A stretch of DNA of 64,000 nucleotides from Thermodesulfovibrio aggregans (GTDB lineage Bacteria > Nitrospirota > Thermodesulfovibrionia > Thermodesulfovibrionales > Thermodesulfovibrionaceae), in contig NZ_BCNO01000001.1 in the NCBI RefSeq assembly GCF_001514535.1, forward strand, positions 1,011,012 through 1,075,011, written 5' to 3'. Below are positions 810 through 7,676 of the stretch, in pieces. The notes under the pieces are model-generated. The model ran no database searches. It was not told the origin of the DNA and saw nothing but the letters and a program-made list of their open reading frames with translations. The translations under genes and the position numbers were made by a program. Each line of letters starts with the position of its first letter. Position 1 is the first letter of the stretch.

Positions 810-2810
810 ATGGCAAAAATCGGGGTTTACTTATGTCACTGTGGTGAGAATATTGCAGGTGCCATTAACATTGAAGAACTTAAAAAATTTGCTGAATCTC
901 TACCAGATGTAGCTGTTGTTAGAAACTATCTTTTTATGTGTTCAGATGCAGGACAAGACTTAATAAAGCAAGATATTAAAAATGGTTTAGTTGACAGAGT
1001 TGTGGTAGCTGCCTGTACTCCAAGAACCCACGGACCTATTTTTAAAAAAGCTGTTGAAGATGCTGGTCTTAATGGATATCTTTTTGAAATGGCTAATGTA
1101 AGAGATCAGGACAGCTGGCCACACTGGCATAACAAAGTTGGTGCTCTTGAGAAAGCAAAAAGATTGATAAGAAGTGCTGTAGCAAAGGTAAGACTAAACG
1201 AGCCTCTTGAGGATCGCTACGGAGATATGGAAAAGTCAGTTTTGATTGTTGGAGGTGGAATAGCTGGAATGTTCGCAGCACTTGATCTTGCAAATATGGG
1301 GCTTAAAGTTTATCTTGTGGAGAGACAGCCATCAATTGGTGGCAATATGTCAAAGATTGATAAAACCTTCCCCACTATGGATTGTTCGGCTTGAATACTC
1401 ACGCCTAAGACGGGCGAGGTCGCCCAGCATCCAAATATAGAGCTTATTACTTACGCAGAAGTAGACGAGGTTAAAGGATATGTTGGAAATTTTGATATTC
1501 GGATAAAGAAAAAGGCAAAATATGTGGACTGGGACAAATGCATAGGTTGTGGTGTATGCACAGAAATTTGTCCATCAAGAGTTCCTAATGAATATAATTT
1601 TGGTTTAAATCAGAGAAGAGCAGCATACATAGAGTACCCTCAAGCAGTTCCTAAAAAAGCAGTTATAGATGAAGCTAATTGTTTATATTTTAAATCAATG
1701 AAAAAGACAGGTAAACCCGCTTGTGAAATATGTAAAAAAGGCATCCCACCGAAAGGAATACAAGGATGTCCAGCCGATGCAATAAAATTTGATGATAAAG
1801 ATGAATATGTGAATATCAAGGTTGGAGCTGTAATTATTGCCACTGGTTTTAAGCCAATGCCTAAACATTACTTTAAAGAATATTCTCCTCACAGCCCAGA
1901 TGTTATAACTTCAATGGAATTTGAAAGAATTTTATCTGCCACAGGACCAACTGGTGGAGAACTCAAAAGGCCATCTGATGGTACAAAACCAAAGACAATA
2001 GTCTTTATCTCCTGTGTTGGAAGTAGAGATGAAAGATATCATACCTATTGTTCAAAGGTATGCTGCATGTATATGCTAAAACATGCAAGGATTCTTAAAG
2101 AAAAATATCCAGATATCAAACTTTATCTCTTCTTCATAGATGTAAGAACAGCTGGTAAAGACTTTGAAGAATTCTATGTTTATACAAGAGAATTAGGTGT
2201 TAAGGTTATTAAAGGTGGTAGAGTTTCAGCAGTTGATGTAAAACCAAATGGAAAACTGAGAGTAAGAGGATTTGACTCTGACCTCTGCGCACCTGTTGAG
2301 CTTGATGCAGACATGGTTGTTCTTGCAACAGCTATTGAGCCACCAGATGGTGTGGATGAACTTAGTCGAATGTTTAGTGCAACTTGTGGAAGAGAAGGAT
2401 TCTTAAGAGAAGTTCACACAAAACTTTATCCTGTTGAAACTTCAGCAAGAGGTGTATTTATCGCTGGATGTGTTCAAGGACCAAAGGATATTCCAGAATC
2501 AATTGCTCAGGCGAGAGCAGCGGCATCTGCGGCAGCAGCTTTAATTATTCCTGGAAAAATTAAGTTTGAAGCAATAGTTTCTGAGGTAGATAGAGATAAA
2601 TGTAGTAGCTGCGGTGTTTGTGTACCACTTTGTCCTTATGGTGCAATAAAGCTTGAGGAATATAAAGGTAAAGAAAAGGCTTATATTGAACCTGCGCTTT
2701 GTGCAGGATGTGGAGTCTGTGCCAGTGCATGTCCATCAAGAGCAATCACATTCCACGGATTTACAACTGAGCAGATTATGGCACAGATTGATGCATTAAC
2801 TGAAGCATAA
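810..2810 (+). CDS. hdrA: HdrA-like heterodisulfide reductase subunit A, selenocysteine-containing
   Basis: FAD- and iron-sulfur-containing core subunit of the HdrABC complex; in methanogens it is the site of flavin-based electron bifurcation. The frame is interrupted by TGA at 1392-1394 and continues in the same frame after it, giving 666 residues with position 195 as Sec. The context DCSA-U-ILTPKTGEVAQHP matches the conserved CSAC/U-ILTPK motif of HdrA, where Sec is known in some methanogens. A dinucleotide-binding GGGIAG lies just before it. Ferredoxin-type clusters begin at about Cys244, Cys598 and Cys631. AAAGGAGGG precedes the ATG. First gene of the operon. In a bacterium without coenzyme M the disulfide acceptor is unknown; a DsrC-type protein is one possibility. 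Confidence 0.93.
1412..1425 (+). promoter_or_regulatory. Putative bacterial SECIS hairpin in hdrA
   Basis: The stem GGGCG (1412-1416) and CGCCC (1421-1425) enclose the loop AGGT, starting 17 bases after the UGA codon. Bacterial SECIS elements sit directly downstream of the UGA within the coding region and carry a GGU-type apical loop, so position and loop both fit. SelB binding is inferred. Confidence 0.65.
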
Positions 2811-2828: not shown

Positions 2829-3365
2829 ATGGAAGAGGGTGGCGTAAATGTAATTGACCTTACCCAGGCAGACGAAAGTTTTATAAAAGAGTTAGTAGAA
2901 CTCGGGGCAGAGGAATTGAGAGAATGCATACAGTGTGGAAAATGTGCATCTACATGTCCAATGGCATTAGCAGGTTTAGAATTTTTTATCAAAAGAATAA
3001 TCCATGCAGCGAATCTTGGTTTAAGAGATGTCCTTCTTGAAGATTCTTCTGTATGGGGTTGTCAGTCCTGTAATCGCTGTGTAGAGATTTGCCCAATGGA
3101 TGTAAAACCTTATGAGGTAATTCAGGCAGTAAGAAGAGCTGCAATGAAGGTTGAATCATGTCCTGCCAATACCTATGAAGGTTTAAGAAATCTTTATAGA
3201 TTTGGGCATGCAGTATATCCAAAGGGATATGAAGAAAGAAGAAAGAAAGTAGGATTACCTGAGAAACCACCAACAGCAATCAGTTTTGATGAGTTAAGAA
3301 AGAAATACCAGGAGGTATTAAAACAAACCATCCTGGAAGAAATAGCACCATTCCCGCTTGATTAA
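2829..3365 (+). CDS. hdrC: HdrC-like heterodisulfide reductase subunit C
   Basis: Iron-sulfur electron-transfer subunit, 178 residues, linking HdrA to HdrB. Two [4Fe-4S] motifs are visible, CIQCGKCASTCP and CQSCNRCVEICPMDVKP, in the usual HdrC arrangement. The gene starts 18 bases after hdrA behind AAAGGAGGG. Cytoplasmic; no membrane segment is seen, which separates it from the cytochrome b-linked HdrDE type. Confidence 0.92.
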   Translation: MEEGGVNVIDLTQADESFIKELVELGAEELRECIQCGKCASTCPMALAGLEFFIKRIIHAANLGLRDVLLEDSSVWGCQSCNRCVEICPMDVKPYEVIQAVRRAAMKVESCPANTYEGLRNLYRFGHAVYPKGYEERRKKVGLPEKPPTAISFDELRKKYQEVLKQTILEEIAPFPLD

Positions 3366-3376
3366 GGAGGATAAAG

Positions 3377-4273
3377 ATGAAGAAAATAGGATTTTTCCTT
3401 GGATGTAACATACCTTTTAATAGACCTGATGTTGAGTATTCTGCAAGATATCTTCTTAATGAGCTTGGCTATGAAATAGTTGAACTTGAAGGAGCTACCT
3501 GCTGTCCTGCCTTTGGAACCATGCCATCTCTTGACTTAGTTGGCTGGGCAGCAGCTTCAGCATGGAATTTATCAATTGCTGAAGAAAAAGGTGTTGATAT
3601 AATTACAGGCTGTGGTTCATGCTATGGTTCTCTTAATGAAGCAAGATATCACATGGAAAAACATCCTGAGATAAAGGAGCAGGTAAATAAAATTCTTGCC
3701 AAAGTTGGTAAGGAATATAAAGGAACTACAAAGGTATGGAATTTTATTAATTTCCTCTATGAAGAAGTAGGACTCGACAATCTCAAATCAAAAATAAAAT
3801 ACAATCTTAATGGTTTAAAATGCGCAGTCCAGACAGGATGTCATAATCTCTGGCCCAGCAGAGCCTATCCAACAAATGAAGAAAATACTTTCTATCCAAC
3901 GAGGCTTAGAGAAATTTGCGAAGCTATGGGTGGAGTTGCACCCCATTACAGCACAATAACTGACTGCTGTGGGATGGGTGCTTTAAGGTCAACTGCATCT
4001 GAAAAGTCTCTTGCACTGTTTAAGAAAAAACTTGATGTAATAAAAGAGGAAGTAGACCCTGATGTGAATGTAATGGGCTGTAGTTCTTGTCTTCTTCAGT
4101 TTGATGCTGGACAGGCACTTTTGGTAGAGCAAAAAAAGCTTGACTATAAAATTCCAGCTATTCACATCGTTCAACTTGCAGCCATAGCAATGGGGGCAGA
4201 TGTTGAAAAAGCAACTGCTATGGCATCAATTCCTTTGAACGGAGTAATAACTAAGATAAAAGGAGGTAATTAA
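3377..4273 (+). CDS. hdrB: HdrB-like heterodisulfide reductase subunit B
   Basis: Catalytic subunit with two cysteine-rich CCG domains that, in the methanogen enzyme, hold non-cubane [4Fe-4S] clusters and reduce the heterodisulfide. The 298-residue protein shows FFLGC near the N-terminus, then ATCCPAFG and GCGSC for the first domain, and TGCHN, TDCCGMG and GCSSC for the second. Length is typical. It follows hdrC by 11 bases with an AAGGAGG site. The natural substrate in this organism cannot be read from sequence. Confidence 0.92.
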   Translation: MKKIGFFLGCNIPFNRPDVEYSARYLLNELGYEIVELEGATCCPAFGTMPSLDLVGWAAASAWNLSIAEEKGVDIITGCGSCYGSLNEARYHMEKHPEIKEQVNKILAKVGKEYKGTTKVWNFINFLYEEVGLDNLKSKIKYNLNGLKCAVQTGCHNLWPSRAYPTNEENTFYPTRLREICEAMGGVAPHYSTITDCCGMGALRSTASEKSLALFKKKLDVIKEEVDPDVNVMGCSSCLLQFDAGQALLVEQKKLDYKIPAIHIVQLAAIAMGADVEKATAMASIPLNGVITKIKGGN

Positions 4274-4274
4274 T

Positions 4275-4691
4275 ATGGCATGGGAGCCAAGACTTATTGT
4301 GATTGCCTGCCATTGGTGTACTTATGCAGGAGCAGATTTGGCAGGAAGCCTGCGTTACAGTTATCCTCCTACAGTGCATATAATTAGAGTGCCCTGTAGT
4401 GGTAGAGTGGAGCCTGAATTTATAGCAGAAGCCCTCAAAAGGGGTGCAGATGGAGTATTTATAGGTGGATGCCACTTTGGTGACTGCCACTATAAAGAAG
4501 GTAACTACAAAGCAATAAGAAGATTTAAGCTTTTCAAGAGAGTAGCAACAGATCTTGGAATTGAGCCAGAAAGAATTCAGCTTGAGTGGATTTCAGGAAG
4601 TGAAGGAAAGAGATTTTCTGAAGCCATGACAGAGTTTGATGCTAAAATAAGGGAACTTGGACCAAATCCATTAAAAGGAGGGGCACAATGA
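4275..4691 (+). CDS. mvhD: MvhD/FrhD-type [2Fe-2S] electron-transfer subunit
   Basis: The 138-residue protein bridges the [NiFe] hydrogenase and HdrA. The N-terminal ACHWCTYAGADLAG and the later CSGR, GGCHFGDCHY motifs are the conserved cysteine set of the MvhD family. In some methanogens one of these positions is Sec; here all are Cys. It begins one base after the hdrB stop, with AAAAGGAGG upstream, and overlaps mvhG by four bases (ATGA), indicating translational coupling. Confidence 0.92.
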   Translation: MAWEPRLIVIACHWCTYAGADLAGSLRYSYPPTVHIIRVPCSGRVEPEFIAEALKRGADGVFIGGCHFGDCHYKEGNYKAIRRFKLFKRVATDLGIEPERIQLEWISGSEGKRFSEAMTEFDAKIRELGPNPLKGGAQ

Positions 4692-5644
4692 GCAAACCTA
4701 AACTTGCATATTATCTTGCTGGTGGTTGTGGTGGCTGTGATATTGCTGTTGTAGATTTATCTGAAGCATTGGTAGATGTTGCCCTTGCAGTAGATATAGT
4801 ATTTTGGGCACCTACAGTGGCAGATGCTAAATATAAAGACCTTGAAGCAATGCCAGATGGCTCAATTGATGTAGGTCTGTTTTCTGGTAATGTTAGAAAT
4901 TCAGAGCATGAGCATATCGCAAAGGTATTAAGGCAAAAATGTAAAATTCTAATTGCCTTTGGAATATGTGCAGCCTGTGGTGGAATAAAAGGACTTGTAA
5001 ATTTACATACAACAGAACAACTGCTTGATAAAGCTTATATAAACACATTTAGCACAGATAATCCAGAAAAAGTTCTGCCTCAGACCACAGTTACAGTGGA
5101 CGGAAAGTATGAATTAACTTTGCCAACTTTGATGGATGCGAGAGCACTTGATCAGGTTGTAAAGGTTGATTACTACATTGGAGGATGCCCTCCGTATCAT
5201 GAGCACATAGCAAAGGCATTTACAGCTTTGCTTTCTGGACAGCTTCCACCTCCAGGCTCATGGATTACAATGGGTAAAGCAGTATGTGAAGTATGTGATA
5301 GAAATCCTGTATTAAAAGGTAAACCAAAGAAGCTTGCAACAACTGTAAAAAGAACTATTGATGGAGCACCAAGCGAAGATGGTTGTCTTCTTGAAGAAGG
5401 TTATTTATGTCTTGGACCAGTAACCCAGGGTGACTGTGGGTCAAAATGTCCAGCTGCCAATATGCCATGTAGAGGATGTGGCGGACCTATTCCTGGAGTC
5501 AAAGACTTTGGTTTGAGAGCAATCAGTGCTATTGCAAGCATGCTTGACAATGAAGAGCTTGTTGACCAGATTCCAGACCCAGTTCATTTATTCTACAGAT
5601 ATACACTGCCAAGTTCGTTTTTGGGTAAAAGATTAAAGAGATAA
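4688..5644 (+). CDS. mvhG: F420-non-reducing-type [NiFe] hydrogenase small subunit (group 3c)
   Basis: Small subunit of 318 residues carrying the iron-sulfur chain from the active site. The N-terminal GGCGGCDIAVVDL and FGICAACGGI are the proximal-cluster ligands of cytoplasmic group 3 small subunits. A C-terminal cysteine-rich stretch around GDCGSKCPAANMPCRGCGG supplies further clusters. There is no twin-arginine signal, so the enzyme is cytoplasmic. It overlaps mvhD by four bases and precedes mvhA. Confidence 0.92.
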   Translation: MSKPKLAYYLAGGCGGCDIAVVDLSEALVDVALAVDIVFWAPTVADAKYKDLEAMPDGSIDVGLFSGNVRNSEHEHIAKVLRQKCKILIAFGICAACGGIKGLVNLHTTEQLLDKAYINTFSTDNPEKVLPQTTVTVDGKYELTLPTLMDARALDQVVKVDYYIGGCPPYHEHIAKAFTALLSGQLPPPGSWITMGKAVCEVCDRNPVLKGKPKKLATTVKRTIDGAPSEDGCLLEEGYLCLGPVTQGDCGSKCPAANMPCRGCGGPIPGVKDFGLRAISAIASMLDNEELVDQIPDPVHLFYRYTLPSSFLGKRLKR

Positions 5645-5699: not shown

Positions 5700-7169
5700 A
5701 TGAAAAAAATCGAAATCAATCCGATGACAAGGCTTGAGGGCCATGGAAAAATAACTATTTTCCTTGATGAACAAGGAAATGTAGAAAATGCTTTTATGCA
5801 GGTTGTTGAATTCATGGGCTATGAGAAATTTCTCATTGGAATGCCTATTGAGGAAGTTCCCCGAACTGTAAGCACCATATGCGGTGTTTGAAGGGGCGTG
5901 CATTTTACAGCCTCAGTGAAGGCTGCAGACGCAGTTTATGGAGTGGAGCCCACTCCAACAGCAAAGAAAATTAGAGAACTTTTTTATAATGCTCATTATG
6001 TAGAAGACCACACAGGAATTCTTTATGCTCTTGGTTTTCCAGATTTTGTATGCGGACCAACAGCTTCACCAGCTGAAAGAAATCTCATAGGTCTTATTTT
6101 AAAAGTAGGTGCAGATGTTGGTAAGCTCGTATTAAAGAAAAGATTTTCCGCAGTTAAAATTTTCGAGCTAACCGCAGGAAGAACAAGCCATCCAGTTGCA
6201 GCACTTCCAGGTGGATGGTCAAAGAGAATAACAGAGGAAGAAAGGCAAGAAATTCTTAAGCTTGCTGACGATTGTATAGAACTCGGGAAATTAACCCTCG
6301 ATGTATTTGATAAAGTCGTTCTTCAGAACAAAGAATATATGGAACTTGTAACCGGTAATGTTTACAAAGTTGTTACCAATTACATGGGAACAGTTGATGA
6401 AAATGACAAAATTGTTTATTATGACGGAACACAGAAGATTGTTGATACGAAAGGGAATGAAATAGGAAGATTTAAAGGTATAGGATATCTGGACTACATT
6501 GCAGAAAGAACACTTCCATGGAGTTATCAGAAAGCTCCATATCTAAAGAAAATTGGATGGAAGGGACTTGTAGATGGAGATGGAACCAGCATTTACAGTG
6601 TAGGACCTCTTGCAAGATTTAATGTAGGAAGCGGATTTGATACTCCTTTAGCACAGGAAGCCTATGAAAAGATGGTTGCTGCCTTTGGTGGCAAGCCTGT
6701 TCATAACACGCTTGCCTATCACTGGGCAAGAGCAATAGAGCTTATGAATGCTGCAGAAAACATTAAAAAGATTGCTTCTGACGAATCTATTACTGATCCC
6801 AATGTTCGTCAGGAGCTTGGCAGTCCTGTGGGTGAAGGCGTTGGCATTGTTGAAGCAGCAAGAGGTACATTGATACATCATTACAGGACCGATGAGAAGG
6901 GAATTGTTACGGATGCTAATTTGATAGTTGCTACAACTCATAATAAAGGACCTATGAACATAGCTGTAAAGAGAGCTGCAGAAAACTTTATAAAGAATGG
7001 AAAAGTCGATGAGGGAATTCTTAATCTTGTTGAAATCGCTTATCGTCCGTATGACCTCTGTTTTGCCTGTTCAACTCACACACTTCCTGGAAGAATTCCT
7101 GTAAGAATAGACATAATAGACCATCATGGCGAACTTGTGAAAACCCTCAGAAACTATGAATTAGTCTAA
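5700..7169 (+). CDS. mvhA: [NiFe] hydrogenase large subunit (group 3c, MvhA-like) with in-frame UGA/Sec
   Basis: Catalytic subunit, 489 residues including Sec64. TGA at 5889-5891 lies inside the N-terminal active-site motif, ICGV-U-RGVH, where the family has CxxC; the frame continues without shift on both sides. The C-terminal motif DLCFACSTH (Cys454, Cys457, His460) keeps cysteines. A 29-residue tail after His460 would be removed during maturation, in agreement with the protease gene next door. I chose the ATG at 5700 because EINPMTRLEGHG follows directly and a G-rich ribosome site precedes it; an upstream in-frame start at 5649 has no good site. A stop codon or sequencing error is the alternative reading, but the position makes Sec much more likely. 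Confidence 0.9.
5908..5925 (+). promoter_or_regulatory. Putative bacterial SECIS hairpin in mvhA
   Basis: The stem CAGCCT (5908-5913) and AGGCTG (5920-5925) closes the loop CAGTGA, 16 bases after the UGA. Position fits a bacterial SECIS; the loop lacks a clear GGU, so this is weaker than the hairpin in hdrA. Confidence 0.5.
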
Positions 7170-7235: not shown

Positions 7236-7676
7236 ATGAAAACTATAATTGTTGGTATTGGTAATCCAAATTTTAAAGATGACGGAATAGGATTAAAAAT
7301 AGTTGAACATTTTGAGGGAATTGTTGATACTGTTAAGCTTTTAAATATAGGTTTTAATCTAATTGATTCATTATTAGGATATGAAAGAGCATTGATTGTA
7401 GATGGAGTAAAAACAGGAAAAGAGCCTGGGAGCATCATTGAGTTTAATACAGATTATTGGGGAAATGTTTATGCAAGTGGAACACACAATCTTTCAATAT
7501 TTGAATTGATACGAATTGGAAAATCCATATATCCAGATGAAATGCCAAAAGAGATAAAAATCATTGGCGTGGAAGTTGAAGATGTTGAAACCTTAACCAG
7601 ACAGTTAAGCCCTTCTGTAGAGGCTGCAATACCTGAGGCTGTTTCAAGAATAAAGGAATATTTAGGAATAAATTAA
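7236..7676 (+). CDS. Hydrogenase maturation endopeptidase (HycI/HoxW family)
   Basis: Protein of 146 residues that by family cleaves the C-terminal tail of a [NiFe] large subunit once nickel is inserted. The N-terminal GIGNPNFKDDGIGLK matches the family GxGNxxxxDDGxG motif with its metal-binding acidic residue. Its position directly after mvhA indicates that MvhA is the substrate, and MvhA keeps a removable tail after His460. GTGAGG precedes the start. Its 3' end overlaps the convergent phosphate transporter gene by 15 bases. Confidence 0.9.
   Translation: MKTIIVGIGNPNFKDDGIGLKIVEHFEGIVDTVKLLNIGFNLIDSLLGYERALIVDGVKTGKEPGSIIEFNTDYWGNVYASGTHNLSIFELIRIGKSIYPDEMPKEIKIIGVEVEDVETLTRQLSPSVEAAIPEAVSRIKEYLGIN

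Follow-up and report, generated by a model that had tools for sequence, protein, structure and literature searches.

The locus examined here raises the question of whether a [NiFe]-hydrogenase can naturally carry selenium not at a terminal nickel site but at the ligand that bridges nickel and iron. To our knowledge, every characterised natural [NiFeSe] enzyme carries Se at the same terminal Ni position, and ideas of what Se is good for have been shaped by this. In the window, the whole stretch of 64,000 nucleotides of Thermodesulfovibrio aggregans DNA that was analysed, an HdrABC-MvhADG locus (Table 1) contains an mvhA-like gene with an in-frame UGA. A first-pass annotation had claimed that this UGA (5889-5891) takes the place of the second Cys of the N-terminal CxxC motif (ICGV-U-RGVH), that the C-terminal motif DLCFACSTH keeps both Cys, and that known Sec sits at the first C-terminal position, unlike here. 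These claims held, the coordinates and motif exactly, and the classical site was found in a different subfamily; the annotation of mvhA had said nothing of how widely the feature occurs, of the SECIS element or of the further Sec codon in neighbouring hdrA. Translated with TGA as U, the frame 5700-7169 encodes a single protein of 489 residues in which U occurs once (residue 64, ICGVURGVH), and two genes of the operon, hdrA and mvhA, have an in-frame TGA. No Cys-type spare MvhA copy was seen among the large-subunit matches in the same genome, where the only other large-subunit-like match is a distant 440-codon frame with 33% identity. Maturation of the mvhA product would be expected to involve a cut after His460, as inferred from sequence alone.

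Table 1. Features of the HdrABC-MvhADG locus in window coordinates; Sec assignments are inferred.
Feature	Position	Strand	Details
hdrA-like subunit	810..2810	+	666 aa; own in-frame UGA (putative Sec195) at 1392-1394
hdrA SECIS apical hairpin	1412..1425	+	gggcg[AGGT]cgccc; UGA distance as in mvhA
hdrC-like subunit	2829..3365	+	
hdrB-like subunit	3377..4273	+	
mvhD/VhuD-like subunit	4275..4691	+	CHWC, without Sec
mvhG/VhuG-like small subunit	4688..5644	+	
mvhA-like [NiFe]-hydrogenase large subunit, group 3c	5700..7169	+	489 aa with putative Sec64
L1 motif, N-terminal	5877..5903	+	ICGV-U-RGVH, residues 60-68
In-frame UGA, putative Sec	5889..5891	+	residue 64, at the second L1 Cys; by homology a ligand bridging Ni and Fe
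Bacterial SECIS apical hairpin	5908..5925	+	cagcct[CAGTGA]aggctg; loop starts 22 nt past the UGA
L2 motif, C-terminal	7053..7079	+	DLCFACSTH, residues 452-460, both Cys present
Hydrogenase maturation protease, HycI/HupD family	7236..7676	+	directly downstream of mvhA

The criteria for a selenoprotein were SelA, SelB, SelD and tRNA-Sec in the genome, an in-frame UGA opposite the Cys of homologues and a SECIS downstream of the UGA, and each was met, the SECIS being judged on its apical hairpin only. The genome encodes SelA, SelD, SelB (387.6 bits, above cut-off) and a tRNA-Sec with a UCA anticodon, which rules out the absence of Sec machinery that the first-pass annotation had named as a possible refutation. 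SelB also scores above the cut-off in 14 of 16 other carriers, and two congeners with Cys-type genes, G012 and G014, retain SelA. The selD gene (G000:C3:243439-244359) has an in-frame TGA as well, and from this codon we infer that SelD here is probably itself a selenoprotein.

TGA occupies the identical codon in nine listed congeners (L002-L010) and in one further genus (L011), while three Thermodesulfovibrio congeners, with 79% identity, have TGT at residue 64. A scan of 84,980 GTDB genomes with the pattern ICG[VIM]-TGA-xxx-H...K returned 67 loci, 50 of them real group 3c large subunits and 17 due to chance; the carriers are mostly metagenome bins. The record titles name Nitrospirota, Thermodesulfobacteriota/Desulfobacterota, Bacillota, Chloroflexota, Acidobacteriota, Krumholzibacteriota, Latescibacterota, Coatesiibacteriota, Zixiibacteriota, KSB1, Stahliibacteriota, Cloacimonadota, Fidelibacterota and UBP1, and Sec64 relatives span at least ten bacterial phyla. 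Isolates with the gene include the Bacillota Desulfotruncus alcoholivorax and Desulfoscipio geothermicus; in the Desulfoscipio order TGA is present in 17 of the 33 genomes with a close match, and a search of Dehalococcoidia gave further Sec and Cys relatives. The deduplicated set comprises 64 Sec64 and 58 Cys64 genes. Every one of the 64 distinct Sec genes has its TGA at the second L1 Cys codon, homologues lacking TGA have a Cys codon at residue 64 within one unbroken frame, and dN/dS is equally low on both sides of the UGA (0.03-0.04 on the 3' side). One Sec candidate (L260, G590:C171) was dropped, its TGA being an ordinary stop. Another Sec64 mvhA, 49% identical (L262, G015:C141), comes from a short contig assigned to a Thermodesulfovibrio MAG and reflects either a second gene copy or misbinning.

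The first-pass annotation had proposed checking whether U and C alternate at residue 64, and the answer is positive. A tree of 121 rows, made by a quick method with residue 64 blanked and with SH-aLRT support only, needs 12 Sec/Cys changes, and well-supported (starred) branches require no fewer than 11 of these. Two Dehalococcoidia genes (L185 and L186) are of the Cys type, with a TGC codon, and have the SECIS hairpin intact, which is likely the trace of a recent Sec-to-Cys change. Residue 163, which adjoins a mostly conserved His, tops the list of residues that switch with Sec (S/T in most Sec64 and I/V in most Cys64 proteins); on independent pairs the association is not significant (4:0 with 7 ties, p=0.125) and is a lead only.

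The SECIS hairpin reads cagcct[CAGTGA]aggctg in Thermodesulfovibrio and tggcct[CGGGTA]aggcca, or relatives of it, elsewhere; other lineages have unrelated stems (cttcgc[AGGC]gcgaag and cttggc[AGGT]gccaag) placed about 2 nt nearer the UGA. A hairpin of at least 6 bp is found in 63 of 64 Sec genes versus 11 of 58 Cys genes (Mann-Whitney p=5e-15, an optimistic value because the rows are related). Across 30 distinct rows with the main geometry, 99.4% of cells are paired and three of the six stem pairs have changed on both sides, with a covariation score that none of 500 shuffles equalled and no slid version of the hairpin approached. Among 470 codon windows compared within the genus, the one made up of the six SECIS codons varies least at synonymous positions (0.03 versus a mean of 0.41). 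The minimum-energy fold of the T. aggregans copy alone favours a competing hairpin, and other single-row folds are mixed with weak z-scores; fixed-geometry and alignment tests were used in place of such folds.

Membership of group 3c (MvhA/VhuA) was judged on a full-length sequence match, on MvhD, MvhG and HdrABC encoded alongside mvhA, and on the active-site residues (four metal-binding Cys/Sec plus Glu, Arg, Asp and His), and the gene satisfied all of these. The best NCBIfam match is VhuA (E 1.8e-112, 376 bits, under the VhuA equivalog cut-off of 800), and the best PDB match is 5odc_F, the MvhA of M. thermolithotrophicus, covering residues 1-484 of the read-through product. E13, C61, C/U64, H68, R388, D452, C454, C457 and H460 are invariant across 116 rows. 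A structure model of the mvhA product, built from 28 aligned loci, is predicted with pLDDT 86.8 and pTM 0.87 and superposes on 5odc_F with Z 52.5 and 1.7 A over 445 residues (residues 2-460). The criterion for a classical [NiFeSe] enzyme, Sec as the first residue of a C-terminal UxxC, is not met by the DLCFACSTH of this gene, and DxCxxC is present in every Sec64 gene with a readable C-terminus, a few records being partial there.

The [NiFe] site has two bridging and two terminal Cys, described without residue numbers in the source consulted (PMC9961374). C79 of E. coli Hyd-1, like Cys68 of D. gigas, is a bridging ligand, and C76 is terminal. MvhA residues 3-116 align with Hyd-1 residues 18-131 without net gap, and E13, C61 and residue 64 fall on Hyd-1 E28, C76 and C79. 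Because the alignment places it on C79, residue 64 is predicted to be a Ni-Fe bridging ligand. The earlier proposal of Sec as the bridging ligand is thus supported by gap-free alignment to solved hydrogenases, and we regard it as very likely that Sec64 binds both metals, an inference from homology without protein or selenium data.

Selenium is not confined to residue 64 in these operons and their relatives. The UGA of hdrA falls at residue 195 (...TMDCSA-U-ILTP), where Sec is predicted in seven of the 12 Thermodesulfovibrio genomes that have this hdrA (T. aggregans included) and in G109, the other five having Cys; hdrA switches independently of mvhA, as G010 and G013 combine a Sec MvhA with a Cys HdrA. 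A search of Desulfobacterota gave many relatives with 43-50% identity and one TGA. Fourteen of the genes read (L243-L248, L250, L251, L253-L258) combine an unaltered ICGIC with DPU..C, which is the classical [NiFeSe] site, and the hairpin of this DPUxxC subfamily has a TGGAY loop, also 22 nt past the UGA. Three others (L209, L240, L241) have ICGVU with DxCxxC, and no gene among the Desulfobacterota genes read has both Sec sites. In the set read, Sec falls at residue 64 or at the first C-terminal Cys only, never at the other two Cys. Two separate Sec solutions thus exist among bacteria in one enzyme family, as the gene sequences show. Four group 3 large subunits (L242, L249, L252, L263) have a TGA stop directly after CxxH; they end at the maturation cut site and would therefore have no C-terminal peptide to remove.

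The sequences show a conserved UGA, a SECIS, the Sec machinery, the neighbouring subunit genes and an alignment that places residue 64 on a bridging ligand. Insertion of Sec at residue 64 is very likely, and remains inferred from sequence alone, without protein or selenium data. The best overall explanation, to which we give similarly high confidence, is that Sec replaces a bridging Cys in an HdrABC-MvhADG hydrogenase. The mvhA product would be the catalytic subunit of this complex, SelB, tRNA-Sec and the in-gene hairpin would place Sec at the second N-terminal CxxC Cys, and its selenolate would bridge Ni and Fe. Selenium at the bridge may be more easily re-reduced after oxygenation, so that the enzyme would stay reactivatable, and it may also soften the Ni-Fe bridge and shift the catalytic bias. 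The bridging cysteine is reported to be the ligand that carries oxygen in an inactive [NiFe] state; its oxygenation has been put forward as what sets Ni-A apart from Ni-B (PMC7324405), and in a group 3 enzyme tolerance of O2 has been attributed to reversible sulfoxygenation of bridging cysteines (PMC12596923). In the unready forms of the A. vinosum and D. fructosovorans enzymes the oxygenated ligand is the N-terminal bridging Cys. That Sec64 serves mainly for redox protection, with a bridging chalcogen that can be oxidised reversibly, is nevertheless an inference without activity data that we hold to be slightly more doubtful than probable. Both the redox and the bias parts rest on chemistry and on papers on other enzymes, and the hosts are mostly anaerobes; the effect on O2 tolerance, H2 affinity or catalytic bias raised by the first-pass annotation is suggested only.

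The main rivals to redox protection accept that Sec64 is inserted. It is possible that Sec serves mainly in active-site assembly (Fe(CN)2CO or nickel insertion, or resistance of the apo-site to oxidation) rather than in catalysis or reactivation. Sec of the D. vulgaris [NiFeSe] enzyme is tied to both maturation and catalysis, according to the title of a study cited in PMC11212049 and PMC9961374, and a maturation protease gene lies directly downstream of mvhA. However, the present data separate neither role from the other, and close Cys relatives exist, so Se-free maturation is possible by sequence. A near-neutral exchange, in which Cys and Sec drift wherever the Sec machinery exists anyway, would fit the repeated Cys/Sec switches, the probable recent loss in the two Cys genes with an intact SECIS and the retention of SelA in G012 and G014. 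We consider it unlikely, given that SECIS and TGA are kept across deep clades and many phyla under strong synonymous constraint, and that, in the set read, only residue 64, or the first C-terminal ligand in another subfamily, is used.

Other rivals deny the insertion itself. Near-cognate readthrough that inserts Cys or Trp at the UGA draws support from the Cys that relatives have at residue 64, but a SECIS and a tRNA-Sec are present, and in the Cys relatives the codon is TGT or TGC and the hairpin is mostly gone, which leaves this reading very unlikely. A broken or split gene, in which the UGA would be a genuine stop or an error of sequencing, is all but excluded. In its favour, a GTG start lies two codons downstream of the UGA (5898). 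Against it, the same TGA recurs in dozens of independent assemblies, purifying constraint continues downstream of it and the SECIS is present, and a split product would be without an essential ligand. Sequencing error, pseudogene and split gene were thus rejected on conservation and dN/dS, and the homologues with a true stop and a separate downstream subunit that would have refuted the first-pass annotation were not found.

With Sec insertion at the bridge as the preferred reading, a bolder one is likely, namely that these enzymes form a second widespread natural class of selenium [NiFe]-hydrogenases, in which a bridging selenolate has been gained and lost many times and whose chemistry would be unlike that of terminal-Se [NiFeSe] enzymes. 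The putative bridging-Sec hydrogenase is widespread and present in cultured strains. Together with Cys twins of about 79% identity in the same genus, such a class offers a clean test of the role of the bridging chalcogen in H2 catalysis, oxidative inactivation and assembly. Gene callers probably truncate Sec64 large subunits at the UGA, and Hdr-Mvh hydrogenases may therefore be under-counted, possibly in Thermodesulfovibrio, Desulfotomaculum relatives, Dehalococcoidia and others.

Among known systems, the bacterial 'FrhA' selenoproteins of Syntrophobacter and Desulfotalea are MvhA-like, contain Sec and are encoded in hdr-mvh operons (PMC1794560). Zhang et al. counted them without giving the Sec position in the relevant passages (PMC1794560), whereas published motif tables give only UxxC, the motif also listed for MvhA/VhuA/VhuU in reviews of prokaryotic selenoproteins (PMC9312934, PMC13188914), and the Desulfobacterota subfamily examined here has such a C-terminal Sec. 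D. autotrophicum is said to have a Sec-containing MvhA2DG (PMC2702500). Neither a natural bridging-Sec hydrogenase nor a CGVU motif was found in the open-access literature searched, subscription papers and supplements being outside reach. In E. coli Hyd-1, as described in PMC11212049, each Ni-binding Cys has been replaced by Sec in the laboratory, bridging positions included, but those variants are engineered, not natural, and belong to an O2-tolerant group 1 enzyme. The closest solved relative, MvhA of the M. thermolithotrophicus HdrABC-MvhAGD complex (5odc), matches over its full length and shares the gene set, but its chain has four Cys ligands and no Sec. HysAB [NiFeSe] and methanogen Vhu/Fru likewise exchange one Ni-binding Cys for Sec through a UGA with a SECIS; their Sec opens a C-terminal UxxC and is a terminal Ni ligand, whereas the MvhA described here has its putative Sec at the second Cys position of the N-terminal motif, where it is predicted to bridge Ni and Fe, and has only Cys in the C-terminal motif.
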